A stretch of 36,896 bases of DNA, taken from the NCBI RefSeq assembly GCF_020169415.1, contig NZ_JAIULG010000051.1:1-36896 (forward strand), given 5' to 3'. Of this stretch, positions 1,079 through 5,601 are shown piece after piece. Position 1 is the first letter of the stretch; each line of letters begins with the position of its first letter. The position numbers and the translations under genes were made by a program. The notes under the pieces are model-generated. The model searched no databases and had not been told where the DNA came from. It saw only the letters and a program-made list of their open reading frames with translations. Source of the stretch: Tsukamurella sp. M9C (GTDB lineage Bacteria; Actinomycetota; Actinomycetes; Mycobacteriales; Mycobacteriaceae).

Positions 1079-1156
1079 TGAAGGGGAGCGGGGGCGCCGT
1101 CGGAACCCTTGGACGCAGGCTGAGCGCAAGGCGGCCCGGATAGAATGGTGGGCGTC

Positions 1157-1993
1157 ATGGGCAAGGTCGTGCTGTTCTACGTGTTCGCCCCGCTGGCCGA
1201 CCCGGAGGCGATCCGGCTGTGGCAGCGGGCGCTGTGTGAGGCGAACGGTCTCCGCGGCCGGATCATCGTCTCCCGCCACGGGATCAACGTCACCGTGGGC
1301 GGCGAGATCCGCGCGGTGAAGCGGTACGTTCGCGCCGTCCGCGAGTACCCGGCCTTCAAGGGCGCCGACGTGAAGTGGTCCGAGGGCTCCGCCGAGGACT
1401 TCCCCAAGCTCTCCGTCAAGGTGCGCGACGAGATCGTCACCTTCGGCGTCCCCGACGAGGTGGAGGTCGACGCGGACGGCGTCCGCGGCGGGGGCGTGCA
1501 CCTGACGCCCGACGAGGTGCACGCACTCCTCGCCGAGAAGCCCGACGCCGTCTTCTTCGACGGCCGCAACGCCATCGAGGCCGAGATCGGCCGGTTCGCC
1601 GGCGCCGTCGTGACGCCGGCCACGACGACCCGCGACTTCGTGACCCTGCTCGACGCGGGGGAGTACGACCACCTCAAGGGCCGCCCGGTCATCACGTACT
1701 GCACCGGCGGCGTGCGCTGCGAGGTGCTCAGCGCCGTGATGCGTAATCGGGGGTTCGGCGAGGTCTACCAGCTCGACGGCGGCATCGCGCGCTACGGCGA
1801 GCGGTTCGGCGACCGCGGGCTCTGGGAGGGCTCGATGTACGTCTTCGACCGGCGCATGAGCATCGACTTCTCCGACCGGGCGAAGCGGATCGGTCGCTGC
1901 ACCGAGTGCGGCGCGCCGACCTCGAACGTCGCGAACCTCGCGCCGCCGCAGGACCGGGAGCTGGCGGTGCTGTGCGAGGACTGCGCGCCGTGA
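1157..1993 (+). CDS. trhO: Rhodanese-domain tRNA uridine(34) hydroxylase (TrhO/YceA family)
   Basis: 278 aa. An N-terminal acylphosphatase-like UPF0176 domain ([12 protein letters not shown], then GINVTVGGE) is followed by a rhodanese domain whose active-site loop is C182-T-G-G-V-R at about residues 182-187. Family members use oxygen to make 5-hydroxyuridine at the tRNA wobble position. A C-terminal pair of Cys-x2-Cys motifs (CTEC and CEDC) may bind zinc. A possible ATG lies at 1145, but it sits inside TAGAAT (1141-1146), which looks like a -10 element; ATG 1157 would then be close to the transcription start, so the mRNA may be nearly leaderless. The stop overlaps the next gene by four bases (GTGA), so the two are probably translationally coupled. 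Confidence 0.85.
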
Positions 1994-3069
1994 GCGGCGG
2001 TCCCGTCCCCGTCGTCGTGGTGGCCGGCTACCTGGGCGCGGGCAAGTCGACGCTGCTCAACCACCTGCTGTCCGGCGCGGGGGACGCCCGGATCGGCGTC
2101 GTGGTCAACGACTTCGGCGCGGTCAACATCGACGCGATGCTCGTCTCGGGCGCGTCCGGCGGTGGATCGGTGCGGACCGTCTCCCTGAGCAATGGGTGCG
2201 TGTGCTGCACCGTCGACGACGACGAGCTCGAGGACGTGCTCTCCTCGCTGGCCGCGCGCGACCTCGACCTCGTGGTGGTTGAGGCGTCCGGGCTCGCCGA
2301 GCCCGCGGCGATGGTGCGGCGCGTGGTGCTCGCGGAGGATCCGCGGATCGACTACGGCGGGCTCGTGTACGTCGCGGACGCCGCGCACCTCGCCGGCACG
2401 ATGGAGCGGCACCCCTCGCTGCGCCACCACCTGGCGCTCGCCGACCTGGTGGTGCTCAACAAGATCGACCTCGCCGCCGACCCGGACGCCGCGCGGGCGC
2501 TGGTGCGCGAGCACGCGCCGTCCGCCCCGGTGGTGGGGACGGTCGACGCGGTGGTGCCGGTGGAACTGCTCATCGACGCGGAGGTCCTCGCCCGTCGCGC
2601 CGCGCAGCGGCGGGACTCCCCGCGCCAGCTGACTCTCGACGAGGCGCTGCGTGAGCACGACCACCGTCACGATCACGAGCACGGCGAATCGCACCGGCAC
2701 CTGCACGACGACTACGCCGCCGTCACCGTCGAGACCGGGCGGCTGGACGCCCGGGCGACCGCCGCGCTGCTCGCCGATCCGCCGCGGGGCGTCTTCCGGA
2801 CGAAGGGCTTCGTCACCGCCGCGGACGGCACCCGGCTCGAGGTGCACGCCGTCGGCCGGCACGTGCGGACGGCCCCGGAGCGCGGCCGGCGGGGCGGGGC
2901 GGCGTCGGTGCTCGTCCTGCTCGGTATCGGGCTCGACGAGGAGGCGATCCGCTCCCGGGTCGAGGGATGCTTGGCGGACCCGGACGCCCCCGCCGACCCG
3001 CGGGCAGTGCTTTCCCTGCTGCGGTACTCCGCTGCGGCGCAAGCTGATTCGGCGATCCTCGAGGACTGA
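1990..3069 (+). CDS. COG0523 GTPase, CobW/ZNG1-type metallochaperone
   Basis: 359 aa from GTG 1990, which overlaps the stop of the rhodanese gene. Walker A is GYLGAGKST (residues 13-21), the family's metal-binding CxCC is C70-V-C-C73, a LNKIDLA box gives guanine specificity, and a His-rich loop coded at about 2656-2718 precedes the CobW C-terminal domain. These features define G3E GTPases that deliver a transition metal, usually zinc, to client enzymes. A longer reading frame goes back to 1906, but the extra residues lie inside the rhodanese gene and look unlike protein. No Zur-type box was recognised upstream. The client is unknown; the coupled rhodanese has Cys pairs that could be a zinc site, which is only a suggestion. 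Confidence 0.9.
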
Positions 3070-3084
3070 TCGACGTCGTTCTTT

Positions 3085-3105
3085 GGTAACGATCCGGTAA
3101 CGATC
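3085..3105 (+). promoter_or_regulatory. Candidate MtrA-binding direct repeat
   Basis: The decamer GGTAACGATC occurs twice, at 3085-3094 and 3096-3105, giving GTAAC-N6-GTAAC with an 11-bp period. MtrA response regulators of actinobacteria are reported to bind direct repeats of this GTnAC type spaced by about one helical turn, and cell-wall hydrolase genes are well-known members of the regulon. The site lies about 125 bp ahead of the amidase-like gene at 3229, and nothing else is transcribed rightward from here. A possible -35 (TTGACT) lies near 3138. Identification rests on pattern alone. Confidence 0.55.
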
Positions 3106-3228
3106 AAGGTCGGGGTTTTCCTAAAGTCTCAATTGATGGTTGACTGTTTCTCGTGTGACTGATGTGACGAAAGTTGCACAAGAGACTTGGAAGGAGAGCG
3201 GCGCCACTTCCCCGGCGCCCAGCTACCC

Positions 3229-4623
3229 ATGAAGAAGACCCGTGTCCTCGCAGGTTCGCTTGCGACTGCGGCCGTCGCGCTTTTCGGCGTGCCCGGCTTC
3301 GCATCCGCCGACCCCGCCCCCGCCGCACCGGCGAAGCCGCTGAACGGCAAGACCGTGTTCCTCGACGCCGGCTCGTCCGTCGCGTCGGCCGTCGAGCAGG
3401 CCCGCAAGGTCGCCGACGGTCGCGGCGGCCAGGTGCCGTGCGTCAATCCGGTGGCGATCGCCTCCAACGGCACCGCCGACCACTCCGTCAACTTCGCCGT
3501 GGCCAAGATGGTCGAGGCGGCGCTCAAGACCCAGGGCGCCAAGGTCATCCTCTCCCGCGCGGACGACGCCGGCTTCGGCGGTTGCGTCGACCAGCGCGCC
3601 ACCGCCGCGAACAAGTCCGGCGCCGACCTCGCCGTCAGTATCAACAGCGCGGTCCAGGATGCGGCCCAGCGCGGATTCGTGCTGGAGACGGCCGCCCCGG
3701 GCGCCACCGACCCCAAGGTGACGGCCCAGCAGGCCGTCAGCGACCCCGCGACCACGGTGCTCCGCGACGCCACCCGCGCCGGCGGCTTCGTGCCTGCGCA
3801 GTACTTCGGCGGCCAGGACGGCATCGCGAAGACCACCAACGCCCTCGCCTCGCTGGTCAACATCCCGCTCGTCTACGCGAACCTCGGGAACCTGGCCAAC
3901 GCCGACGATGCGGCGCTGCTCACCTCGCGTGAGGGCCAGACCCAGTACGCCTCCGTGCTCACCAACGGCGTGATCCAGCAGCTGACCGGCAAGGTCAAGC
4001 CCGGCGGCGTCGTCGAGCAGCCCGTCGTGGCCCAGCCCGTCGCACCGCAGGTCGACCCGGTCGTGCCGGTGACCCCCGCAGCTCCGGCCGCGCCCGCGGC
4101 GACGGCTCCCGCCGCGACCGCTCCGGCCGCCACCGCTCCGGCGGCGACGGTGCCGACCGCCCCGGCGCAGACGCCGATCGTTCCCGCCGTGCCGGGCGCG
4201 CCCGCCGCTGCGGCTCCCGTGACGCCCAGCACCGGGACGGGGACCTCCCCGATCGTCTCGGGCGTGCCGATGCTGCAGGGCGGTGCGACCCCGTCGGCCG
4301 CCACCGCACCGCAGGCGACCGCTCCGGCGGCGACCGCGCCACAGGGCACCTCGGTGACCATCCCCGGCCTGGGGCAGGTGGCGCTGCCGCAGCTCCCGAC
4401 GGTGACGATCCCCGGGCAGGCCCAGCCGCTGGGCGTGAACTCCCTCTTCGAGATGGGGCCCAAGGCCGCAGAGTTCCTCACCAGCTCGCAGGGGACGCAG
4501 CTCGTCAACACGCTGATCTCCAGCCCGCAGGCCTTCAACTCCCTGCAGTCCGCGCAGGGACCGGCCGCCGCGCAGGAGATCCTCAAGGCGATCCTGAGCG
4601 CCGGCGCGATCCTGCCGAAGTAG
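3229..4623 (+). CDS. Secreted Amidase_3-fold protein without catalytic residues (Rv3717/Ami1-like pseudo-amidase)
   Basis: 464 aa. A Sec signal peptide (MKKTRVLAGSL..., probable cleavage at ASA-D near residue 27) leads to a domain (about 40-250) that aligns throughout with M. tuberculosis Rv3717, a zinc N-acetylmuramoyl-L-alanine amidase. The two structural cysteines (C71, C119), the GRGG segment, LSR and the GQDG region are kept. All functional positions are changed: the zinc His of DPGH is S49 (DAGS), the zinc Glu is D84, the zinc His of SLH is N139 (SIN), and the catalytic Glu before LGN is N218. The remainder is a Pro/Ala/Thr linker with short repeats and a C-terminal helical segment (about 400-464). 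I infer a non-hydrolytic peptidoglycan-binding or regulatory role. A TTG at 3187 is in frame but ATG 3229 starts the signal peptide. Confidence 0.85.
   Translation: MKKTRVLAGSLATAAVALFGVPGFASADPAPAAPAKPLNGKTVFLDAGSSVASAVEQARKVADGRGGQVPCVNPVAIASNGTADHSVNFAVAKMVEAALKTQGAKVILSRADDAGFGGCVDQRATAANKSGADLAVSINSAVQDAAQRGFVLETAAPGATDPKVTAQQAVSDPATTVLRDATRAGGFVPAQYFGGQDGIAKTTNALASLVNIPLVYANLGNLANADDAALLTSREGQTQYASVLTNGVIQQLTGKVKPGGVVEQPVVAQPVAPQVDPVVPVTPAAPAAPAATAPAATAPAATAPAATVPTAPAQTPIVPAVPGAPAAAAPVTPSTGTGTSPIVSGVPMLQGGATPSAATAPQATAPAATAPQGTSVTIPGLGQVALPQLPTVTIPGQAQPLGVNSLFEMGPKAAEFLTSSQGTQLVNTLISSPQAFNSLQSAQGPAAAQEILKAILSAGAILPK
4093..4152 (+). repeat. 15-bp tandem repeat coding PAATA linker
   Basis: Four consecutive 15-bp units encode Pro-Ala-Ala-Thr-Ala, the last one ending in Val. 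They sit in the Pro/Ala/Thr-rich linker of the amidase-like protein. Third codon positions vary between units, so the repeat is selected or old at protein level rather than freshly slipped. Such linkers are common in proteins that cross the mycolic-acid cell wall. Confidence 0.8.
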
Positions 4624-4707: not shown

Positions 4708-5601
4708 ATGGCACTCCGCAATATCGTCCGGCTCGTCCACATGGCCCCGCCGATCAAGGACCTGAAGGGGAAGAAGGTCCTTGTCACCGGCGCGGCCAGC
4801 GGGATCGGCCGCGCTACCGCGAATCTCCTCGCGGCGCACGGCGCCGAGCTGGTGTTGACCGACATCAACGCCGAACAGCTCGACGCCGTCACCCGCCACG
4901 TCACCGCCCTGGGCGCGAAGGTCATCGCGTCCAGGGCGTTCGACGTCTCCGACTACGACGCGGTCCGCGCGTTCGCCGACGAGGTGCACGCGGCCGCCGG
5001 CGCCCTCGACATCGTGATGAACGTCGCCGGTATCGCCGTCTGGGGCACCGTCGAGAACCTCACCCACGAGCAGTGGCGCAAGACCGTGGACGTGAACCTC
5101 ATGGGGCCGATCCACGTGATCGAGACCTTCATCCCGCCGATGATCGCGGCGAAGCGCGGCGGCCAGCTGGTCAACGTATCGTCCACGGCCGGCCTCATCG
5201 CACTGCCCTGGCACGCCGCGTACTCGGCCGCGAAGTTCGGCCTCGTCGGCGTCTCCGAGGTGCTCCGCTACGACCTGCGCCGGCACGGCATCGGCGTCTC
5301 CGTGGTGGTGCCCGGCGCCGTGGAGACCGGCCTGGTGAAGACCGTCGAGATCAACGGAGTCGACCGCACCAACCCGAAGGTCAACAAGGGCATCGACGCC
5401 TTCCCGAAGGTCACCGCCGAGAAGGCGGCGCAGGCGATCGTCGACGGGGTGCTCCACAACCGCTTCATCGTGTACACCTCGCTCGACACCCGCTTCGGCT
5501 ACTTCTGGAAGCGGAAGTTCGCGCTGCCCTACGAGATCGCGATGCGGGTGGCCAACGACCGGTTCGCCTACCTGGCGAAGATCTCAGAGCGCGGCCACTA
5601 G
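4708..5601 (+). CDS. Short-chain dehydrogenase/reductase (Rv3057c-like)
   Basis: 297 aa classical SDR. The cofactor loop is TGAASGIG (residues 27-34), NVAG is at about 105-108, and the catalytic Ser159, Tyr172 and Lys176 lie in VNVSSTAGL and YSAAK. The acidic D52 in LTDIN at the end of beta-2 suggests NAD(H) rather than NADP(H). An N-terminal extension of about 20 residues and a C-terminal tail of about 60 beyond the core make it longer than minimal SDRs. The substrate is not predictable. By position next to the TetR and FMN reductase it corresponds, from memory, to Rv3057c in the M. tuberculosis nrd neighbourhood. Its last 18 bp overlap the 3' end of the convergent TetR gene. Confidence 0.9.
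   Translation: MALRNIVRLVHMAPPIKDLKGKKVLVTGAASGIGRATANLLAAHGAELVLTDINAEQLDAVTRHVTALGAKVIASRAFDVSDYDAVRAFADEVHAAAGALDIVMNVAGIAVWGTVENLTHEQWRKTVDVNLMGPIHVIETFIPPMIAAKRGGQLVNVSSTAGLIALPWHAAYSAAKFGLVGVSEVLRYDLRRHGIGVSVVVPGAVETGLVKTVEINGVDRTNPKVNKGIDAFPKVTAEKAAQAIVDGVLHNRFIVYTSLDTRFGYFWKRKFALPYEIAMRVANDRFAYLAKISERGH

Follow-up and report, generated by a model that had tools for sequence, protein, structure and literature searches.

Gene content and protein architecture

The window, a stretch of 36 896 nucleotides from Tsukamurella sp. M9C, contains a forward-strand open reading frame whose translation product of 464 residues starts with a signal peptide (recognized by eye), which is followed by an Amidase_3 domain, then by a Pro/Ala/Thr linker and finally by a conserved tail (Table 1). 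The product matched the Pfam Amidase_3 family (PF01520) with an E-value of 5.9e-16 and a score of 59.4 bits against a curated cut-off of 27, which places it in this fold family. The closest solved chain by sequence was that of Rv3717 (4m6g; E = 9.1e-26, residues 38–250), and profile–profile alignment of the Tsukamurella copies gave E = 1e-41 against an Ami1-type set and E = 8.4e-69 against long-form sequences.

The neighbouring genes, encoding a TrhO-type rhodanese, a CobW-type GTPase and a short-chain (SDR) oxidoreductase, have no evident wall function. The idea of zinc starvation, with the CobW-type GTPase marking a zinc-independent paralogue, was rejected: a Zur-like pattern matched once in the window, elsewhere and with 3 mismatches, no more often than in shuffled sequence (mean 0.72).

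Table 1. Features at and around the pseudo-amidase gene, in window coordinates
Feature	Position	Strand	Basis
Secreted pseudo-amidase CDS, 464 aa	3229..4623	+	ORF, Amidase_3 match, matches in 16/16 Tsukamurella genomes
Probable Sec signal peptide, aa 1-28, ...FASA/DPAPA	3229..3312	+	By eye, family alignment
Degenerate Amidase_3 domain, aa 36-256	3334..3996	+	Pfam, Rv3717 match, profile-profile alignment
Ser49 codon, replaces first zinc His	3373..3375	+	Alignment to Rv3717
Asp84 codon, replaces zinc Glu	3478..3480	+	Alignment to Rv3717
Asn139 codon, replaces second zinc His	3643..3645	+	Alignment to Rv3717
Asn218 codon, replaces catalytic Glu	3880..3882	+	Alignment to Rv3717
Pro/Ala/Thr linker, aa 257-375	3997..4353	+	Alignment; median dN/dS 0.185
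Linker motif SPIVSGVPMLQGG, aa 340-352	4246..4284	+	Core SPI[VA]xGVP[ML] found in dead copies only
Conserved C-terminal segment, aa 376-464	4354..4620	+	Weak kinship to tail of some live long-form amidases
MtrA-like operator (candidate), GTAACGAT direct repeat, 3-bp spacer	3086..3104	+	Pattern searches; published MtrA consensus
Leader/promoter region, strongly conserved in Tsukamurella	3116..3228	+	14-row alignment
TrhO-type rhodanese, conserved upstream neighbour	1145..1993	+	Gene-order comparison
CobW-type GTPase, conserved upstream neighbour	1990..3069	+	GTGA overlap with TrhO; gene-order comparison
SDR oxidoreductase, conserved downstream neighbour	4708..5601	+	Gene-order comparison

Degeneration of the active site

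In Rv3717, the zinc ligands are given as His11, Glu46 and His101, with Glu176 engaged via water (construct numbering; available excerpts of PMC3852659). The ligands and the catalytic Glu align with S49, D84, N139 and N218 of the window protein, which keeps none of the four catalytic residues (0/4); the replacement of H, E, H and E at these positions, as made in the original prediction, is therefore borne out by the alignment with Rv3717. Read in the same order, the four sites are SDNN in 13, SDND in one and SGDD in one of 15 Tsukamurella copies, with no catalytic residue in any; these copies are referred to here as dead, and copies with the intact set (HEHE) as live. The two deepest copies both have Asp at the catalytic site, and one of them has Asp at the second His site; their first site is S or G by alignment (a one-residue insertion is present), neither being His. 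A 16th copy (genome G014) is fragmented: S, D and N occupy the first three sites, and the fourth was not found by the search of the pieces.

The state of the substrate pocket was assessed by aligning the protein with solved structures. The side chains of Mycobacterium abscessus Ami1 that hold L-Ala-D-isoGln are reported as Lys45, Gln48, Asp117, Arg173 and Glu190, with Asp175 supporting Arg173, and the dipeptide is also held by main-chain contacts (available excerpts of PMC7694207). With the zinc ligands of that source as anchor, Lys45, Gln48, Asp117, Arg173, Asp175 and Glu190 map to residues 69, 72, 141, 201, 203 and 218 of the window protein. All six mapped side chains are replaced in 15/15 dead copies, and His137 (Rv3717 numbering) is likewise replaced in 15/15.

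Positions were called universal if conserved in at least 90% of 54 long-form rows and at least 85% of 30 other rows, the latter including 15 Tsukamurella Ami1-type rows. Of 47 universal positions in active relatives, 32 are kept, 2 are partly kept and 13 are lost in all 15 dead rows, and the chance of all four catalytic sites falling among 13 of 47 positions lost at random is 0.004. The 32 retained positions are mostly fold residues, and fold glycines are among the retained features. C71 and C119 are present in 15/15 rows, as predicted; the word disulfide was not found in the text of the Rv3717 paper (PMC3852659). The GQDG region, expected to be kept, varies over the 15 rows (GQDG, GKDG, SVNG or SNKG), and the dead copies lack the Arg and Asp that directly follow it, both of which are universal in active relatives. 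The view of four independent losses also needs revision in both of its parts, as more than four universal positions are gone throughout and the losses trace to the ancestor of Tsukamurella. Judged by these alignments, the metal site and the substrate pocket are both erased, the 464-residue protein is almost certainly a pseudoenzyme, and catalysis by the old pocket is unlikely.

Orthology with long-form amidases of related genera

Matches to the pseudo-amidase were found in all 16 Tsukamurella genomes (one fragmented), and 161 of 251 genomes matched in an even sample of the family, which we take to be the GTDB Mycobacteriaceae. Duplicate loci (L013, L029, L051–L066 and similar) were removed before counting, and the four sites were read in fetched loci, a subset of the 161 matching genomes. 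All homologues outside Tsukamurella in the first fetched set carry HEHE (54 long forms and 13 others), as do 59 of 60 further family loci, the remaining one being truncated by a contig end. The same four substitutions, which the original prediction would have sought in related genera, were thus not seen there among the fetched loci: every fetched copy readable at the four sites is HEHE.

In a tree of 99 rows, the 15 dead copies form one clade (support 100/100), and the dead copies and the 54 live long forms are grouped (100/100) separately from the Ami1-type sequences. The fragmented G014 copies were excluded from the family alignment, the tree and the dN/dS estimates. The live long forms cohere weakly (90/52), and the stem branch of the dead clade is long, at 0.75 changes per column. 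With midpoint rooting, and a warning from the tool of long branches meeting, the dead clade may be sister to all live long forms or nested among them.

The gene order TrhO-CobW-amidase-SDR is common to 9/20 long-form loci of other genera. A further 5/20 have CobW without TrhO or SDR alongside, and 6/20 have none of the three neighbours adjacent (L146 has a weak SDR match ∼6 kb away). Among named Tsukamurella loci the order is kept in 10/11, the contig of the 11th stopping inside the gene. Because of the tree grouping and the shared gene order, we regard the pseudo-amidase as the orthologue of the long-form amidases, a relationship that gene order, as compared across these sequences, settles. 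Orthology with Rv3717 was rejected, given the fully supported grouping with the long forms and a score of 147.8 bits with the NCBIfam Rv3717 model (NF038140), for which the cut-off is 335.

Two assemblies stand apart. Of 11 named loci retrieved from the genome collection with the family alignment, 10 bear the name Tsukamurella and the other comes from a metagenome bin named 'Acidobacteriaceae bacterium' (G006). In this bin, TrhO and CobW precede the pseudo-amidase as they do in Tsukamurella (L075; CAJCHX010000171.1), and the bin falls in the same genus by genome search; it also holds two Amidase_3 pieces (L047, L048) unlike those of the genus, and is probably mislabelled or mixed. In strain PLM1 (G014), the pseudo-amidase and the Ami1-type paralogue are both fragmented (L016, L046, L049). 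Since the paralogue is also in pieces and the assembly is 83% complete, the broken frames are likely to reflect sequencing or assembly error, not gene loss.

Other Amidase_3 genes

Besides the dead gene, the genome contains two others of the Amidase_3 family, an intact Ami1-type gene and a CwlM-like gene, and by eye the full catalytic set is found in one of the three. Typed by place and match length, without alignment, three Amidase_3 genes were present in 6/6 Tsukamurella genomes scanned, and 18/20 genomes with a live long form had no further match of secreted-type length (the exceptions being G109 and G089). The Tsukamurella Ami1-type copies are HEHE in 15/16 rows; the broken G014 copy reads HEH, with the last site unread. 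Genus g38 possesses live long forms (L089, L091, L100, L118) together with an intact Ami1-type gene (L119). There is a tendency for a lineage to retain a single intact secreted type, a pattern consistent with catalysis having been handed over, but both types can persist.

The Tsukamurella Ami1-type proteins (L031–L045) are lipoprotein-like, with a lipobox-like L-x-[GAS]-C before the domain in 13/15 rows; as exceptions, L045 has VSGC and L040 has no Cys there. The CwlM-like protein (L133; G000:C22, around 43730–44266) has a site that is degenerate by eye (DPGL, ALRTAH, QIDIG).

Selection on the domain, linker and tail

Pairwise dN/dS was estimated by the Nei–Gojobori method for 66 pairs from 12 species, leaving out L014, L015 and L050. 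The median was 0.141 (0.030–0.349) for the dead domain and 0.138 (0.029–0.391; 66 pairs) for the intact Ami1-type domain, simple counts that give an order of magnitude and not a precise value, as the pairs are not independent of one another and synonymous divergence is high in some of them. Within the dead proteins, the medians for the linker and the tail were 0.185 and 0.178, respectively. The dead domain and the domain of the intact Ami1-type paralogue are under purifying selection of the same order.

The linker motif SPI[VA]xGVP[ML], starting at residue 340, is present in 15/15 dead copies and 0/99 live long-form proteins, a distribution most simply explained by an origin on the branch of catalytic loss. 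This makes the motif a better candidate for a new feature than the C-terminal end, where the original prediction had placed a helix (about 400–464) as part of a partner-binding end. A model of the dead tail matched 17/54 live tails at 10.7 bits or more, compared with 1/1080 shuffled tails, although these scores are low and many of the 17 tails are near copies of one another; 32/54 live proteins are without the GGKLP tail. Since a related tail exists in this subset of HEHE-bearing orthologues, the C-terminal tail probably predates the catalytic loss, and the C-terminal end was rejected as a Tsukamurella novelty.

Upstream region

A direct repeat of the MtrA type, GTAACGAT-CCG-GTAACGAT, lies upstream of the pseudo-amidase gene and forms a candidate operator. 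In the available excerpts of the respective sources, the Corynebacterium glutamicum MtrA consensus is (A/G)TAACAATttn(A/G)TAACAAT (PMC3353115), a direct repeat resembling it is described for Mycobacterium tuberculosis and the rpfB and ripA promoters are reported as MtrA targets (PMC6265350), and a Dietzia study gives a different, TCG-rich motif (PMC9599347). The site in the window is the sole genome-wide match to RTAACNNTNNNRTAACNNT. A looser 19-base pattern, RTMACNNTNNNRTMACNNT, had five matches in the genome and its reversed control none. Two of the four other matches are ∼240–265 bp upstream of Rpf-type genes (of which the genome has three), one in the opposite orientation; of the remaining two, one is close to an uncharacterised gene and the other falls in the rsmG region. 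The patterns were written after the site was seen, and the rpf matches are the sole independent check on them.

Across the loci, RTVAC-N6-RTVAC was found upstream of 13/15 dead copies (shuffled mean 0.02), these being related sequences and not 13 events. It was also found upstream of 17/99 live long-form genes (shuffled 0.86) and of 2/41 others (shuffled 0.24), one of which is L101, a long form mistyped as Ami1-like by the motif rule. Taken by themselves, the Tsukamurella Ami1-type genes have it in 1/15 upstream regions (L033). The pseudo-amidase gene is thus predicted to be under MtrA control, and the putative operator hints that the protein acts in division or wall remodelling. Another MtrA-like repeat (L248; G000:C66:130714–130732) lies ∼160 bp upstream of a gene for an uncharacterised Pro/Thr-rich protein, which may share this regulation.

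The leader is strongly conserved over 14 aligned species rows. Its exact core, GTGTGACTGA[AT]GTGA, occurs in 15/15 dead and 0/99 live upstream regions, and looser forms of the core occur in 8/99 and 10/99 live upstream regions (a count without shuffled control). A riboswitch or RNA leader was rejected, both Rfam matches in 2950–3350 being far under their gathering scores. A Shine–Dalgarno-like GGAAGGAG is located >30 bases before the start codon (3188–3219 of the window). Between the two is a short inverted repeat, GGCGCC-N8-GGCGCC (3200–3219), whose arms covary in the 14 rows (GGCACC/GGTGCC, GGTACC/GGTACC), with one G-U-type mismatch in L014; the repeat could be a hairpin joining the ribosome site and the start.

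Proposed role and alternatives

The sequences show the loss of the sites, the orthology, the purifying selection, the motif conserved in the linker and the operator-like repeat; from these we propose, as a reasonably probable interpretation, that the protein is a genus-fixed, secreted, non-catalytic component of MtrA-controlled cell-wall remodelling that docks via its folded domain, linker or tail; its lack of activity, its control by MtrA, its docking and any partner are what we infer. The expectation of a non-hydrolytic role holds up, because the catalytic residues are lost while the fold, the export signal and the gene are retained genus-wide under purifying selection. The ancestor would have been common with the HEHE long form found at the same locus in related genera, comprising a signal peptide, an amidase domain, a Pro/Ala/Thr linker and C-terminal helices. 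Before the Tsukamurella radiation, the zinc ligands, catalytic Glu and stem-peptide contacts would have been lost and the linker motif fixed. Export, fold, the two cysteines, tail, gene neighbourhood and MtrA-like promoter would have been retained, with the intact Tsukamurella site residing on the separate Ami1-type paralogue. The constraint on the folded domain, together with the fixed linker motif and the tail, suggests that the protein docks to a wall polymer or to a partner in the envelope. Its folded domain and its linker and tail motifs would then provide the surfaces for this contact, and the docked dead protein might position or restrain other hydrolases.

A bolder version, which we offer as speculation, is that the ancestor passed secreted Amidase_3 catalysis to the Ami1-type lipoprotein. 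The former amidase would have become its extracellular regulator or anchor, with the erased site and SPI[VA]xGVP[ML] as docking surface, expressed through MtrA with wall hydrolases as an extracytoplasmic counterpart of CwlM.

Direct control of the intact Ami1-type paralogue (lipoprotein-like in most species), whether as activator or inhibitor, is conceivable but doubtful as an explanation in its own right. It draws on precedents in EnvC, which activates amidases although it has no catalytic residues itself, and CwlM, which activates MurA (available excerpts of PMC4946905). It also draws on the intact second copy that Tsukamurella keeps (HEHE in 15/16 rows) and on the three Amidase_3 genes in 6/6 Tsukamurella genomes versus the 18/20 live-long-form genomes without an extra secreted-type match. 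However, the dead and Ami1-type genes lie on different contigs, the operator-like repeat is upstream of a single Ami1-type gene of 15 (L033), and genus g38 keeps both types live, so that owning both need not kill the long form. Catalytic loss with binding kept is a common pseudoenzyme route, and the protein might bind peptidoglycan stem peptides in the former active-site groove, competing or shielding in the manner of a lectin. The protein looks exported and retains 32/47 universal positions, for the most part those of the fold. However, the side chains that are reported to contact the dipeptide are all replaced in 15/15 dead copies, as is His137. Stem-peptide binding through the old pocket, one form that the peptidoglycan binding suggested in the original prediction could take, is therefore unlikely, and we consider this explanation improbable.

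The remaining two readings are weaker still. The matches in 16/16 genomes, a dN/dS like that of the intact paralogue and the strongly conserved leader make it very unlikely that the gene is a decaying relic without function, even though the long stem branch (0.75 changes per column) would fit fast change after loss and the frame is broken in PLM1, where assembly error is the likely cause. That the protein is still a hydrolase, with another metal arrangement or chemistry, is scarcely credible. A metal might conceivably be bound by Asp or Asn where the ligands used to be, and the deepest copies have Asp at the catalytic site (both) and at the second His (one), but the site residues vary by lineage (SDNN, SDND, SGDD) and the substrate contacts are lost.

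Relation to known systems

Like the pseudo-amidase, the long-form Amidase_3 proteins of other genera have a Pro-rich linker, a related tail in a subset and some similar promoters; unlike it, they keep HEHE and have SPI[VA]xGVP[ML] in none of 99. Rv3717/Ami1 shares the full-length Amidase_3 alignment, the two conserved cysteines and a signal peptide, but falls in a separate tree group, is a zinc amidase and is without the long linker and tail. CwlM (Rv3915) appears in the available excerpts of PMC4946905 as an Amidase_3 homologue with a degenerate zinc site and a regulatory role, but is cytoplasmic and phosphorylated, and its homologues are described there as having no secretion signal. The likeness to CwlM drawn in the original prediction is thus useful as an analogy, whereas identity was rejected, given the signal peptide seen by eye and the separate CwlM-like gene at C22 of the genome. 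Escherichia coli EnvC shares the idea of a degenerate hydrolase acting by amidase activation (same excerpts), but by its description has a LytM domain, of another family than Amidase_3. By analogy, CwlM and EnvC make a change from enzyme to non-enzyme possible, and are not proof of it for the pseudo-amidase.

Searches of open-licence literature, covering mainly titles and abstract starts, found no account of a secreted pseudoenzyme of the Amidase_3 family that is fixed in a whole genus, nor any characterised member of the long-form amidases. A HEHE orthologue exists at the same locus in related genera, and the shift from enzyme to non-enzyme is therefore testable by direct comparison of live and dead proteins. 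Annotating this gene as an 'N-acetylmuramoyl-L-alanine amidase' would be misleading anywhere in Tsukamurella. The findings also point to a widespread family of long-form amidases, part of which has MtrA-like operators. Two long-form amidases of genus g8 (L020, L120) have frames of 899 and 995 residues and tails unlike the others.
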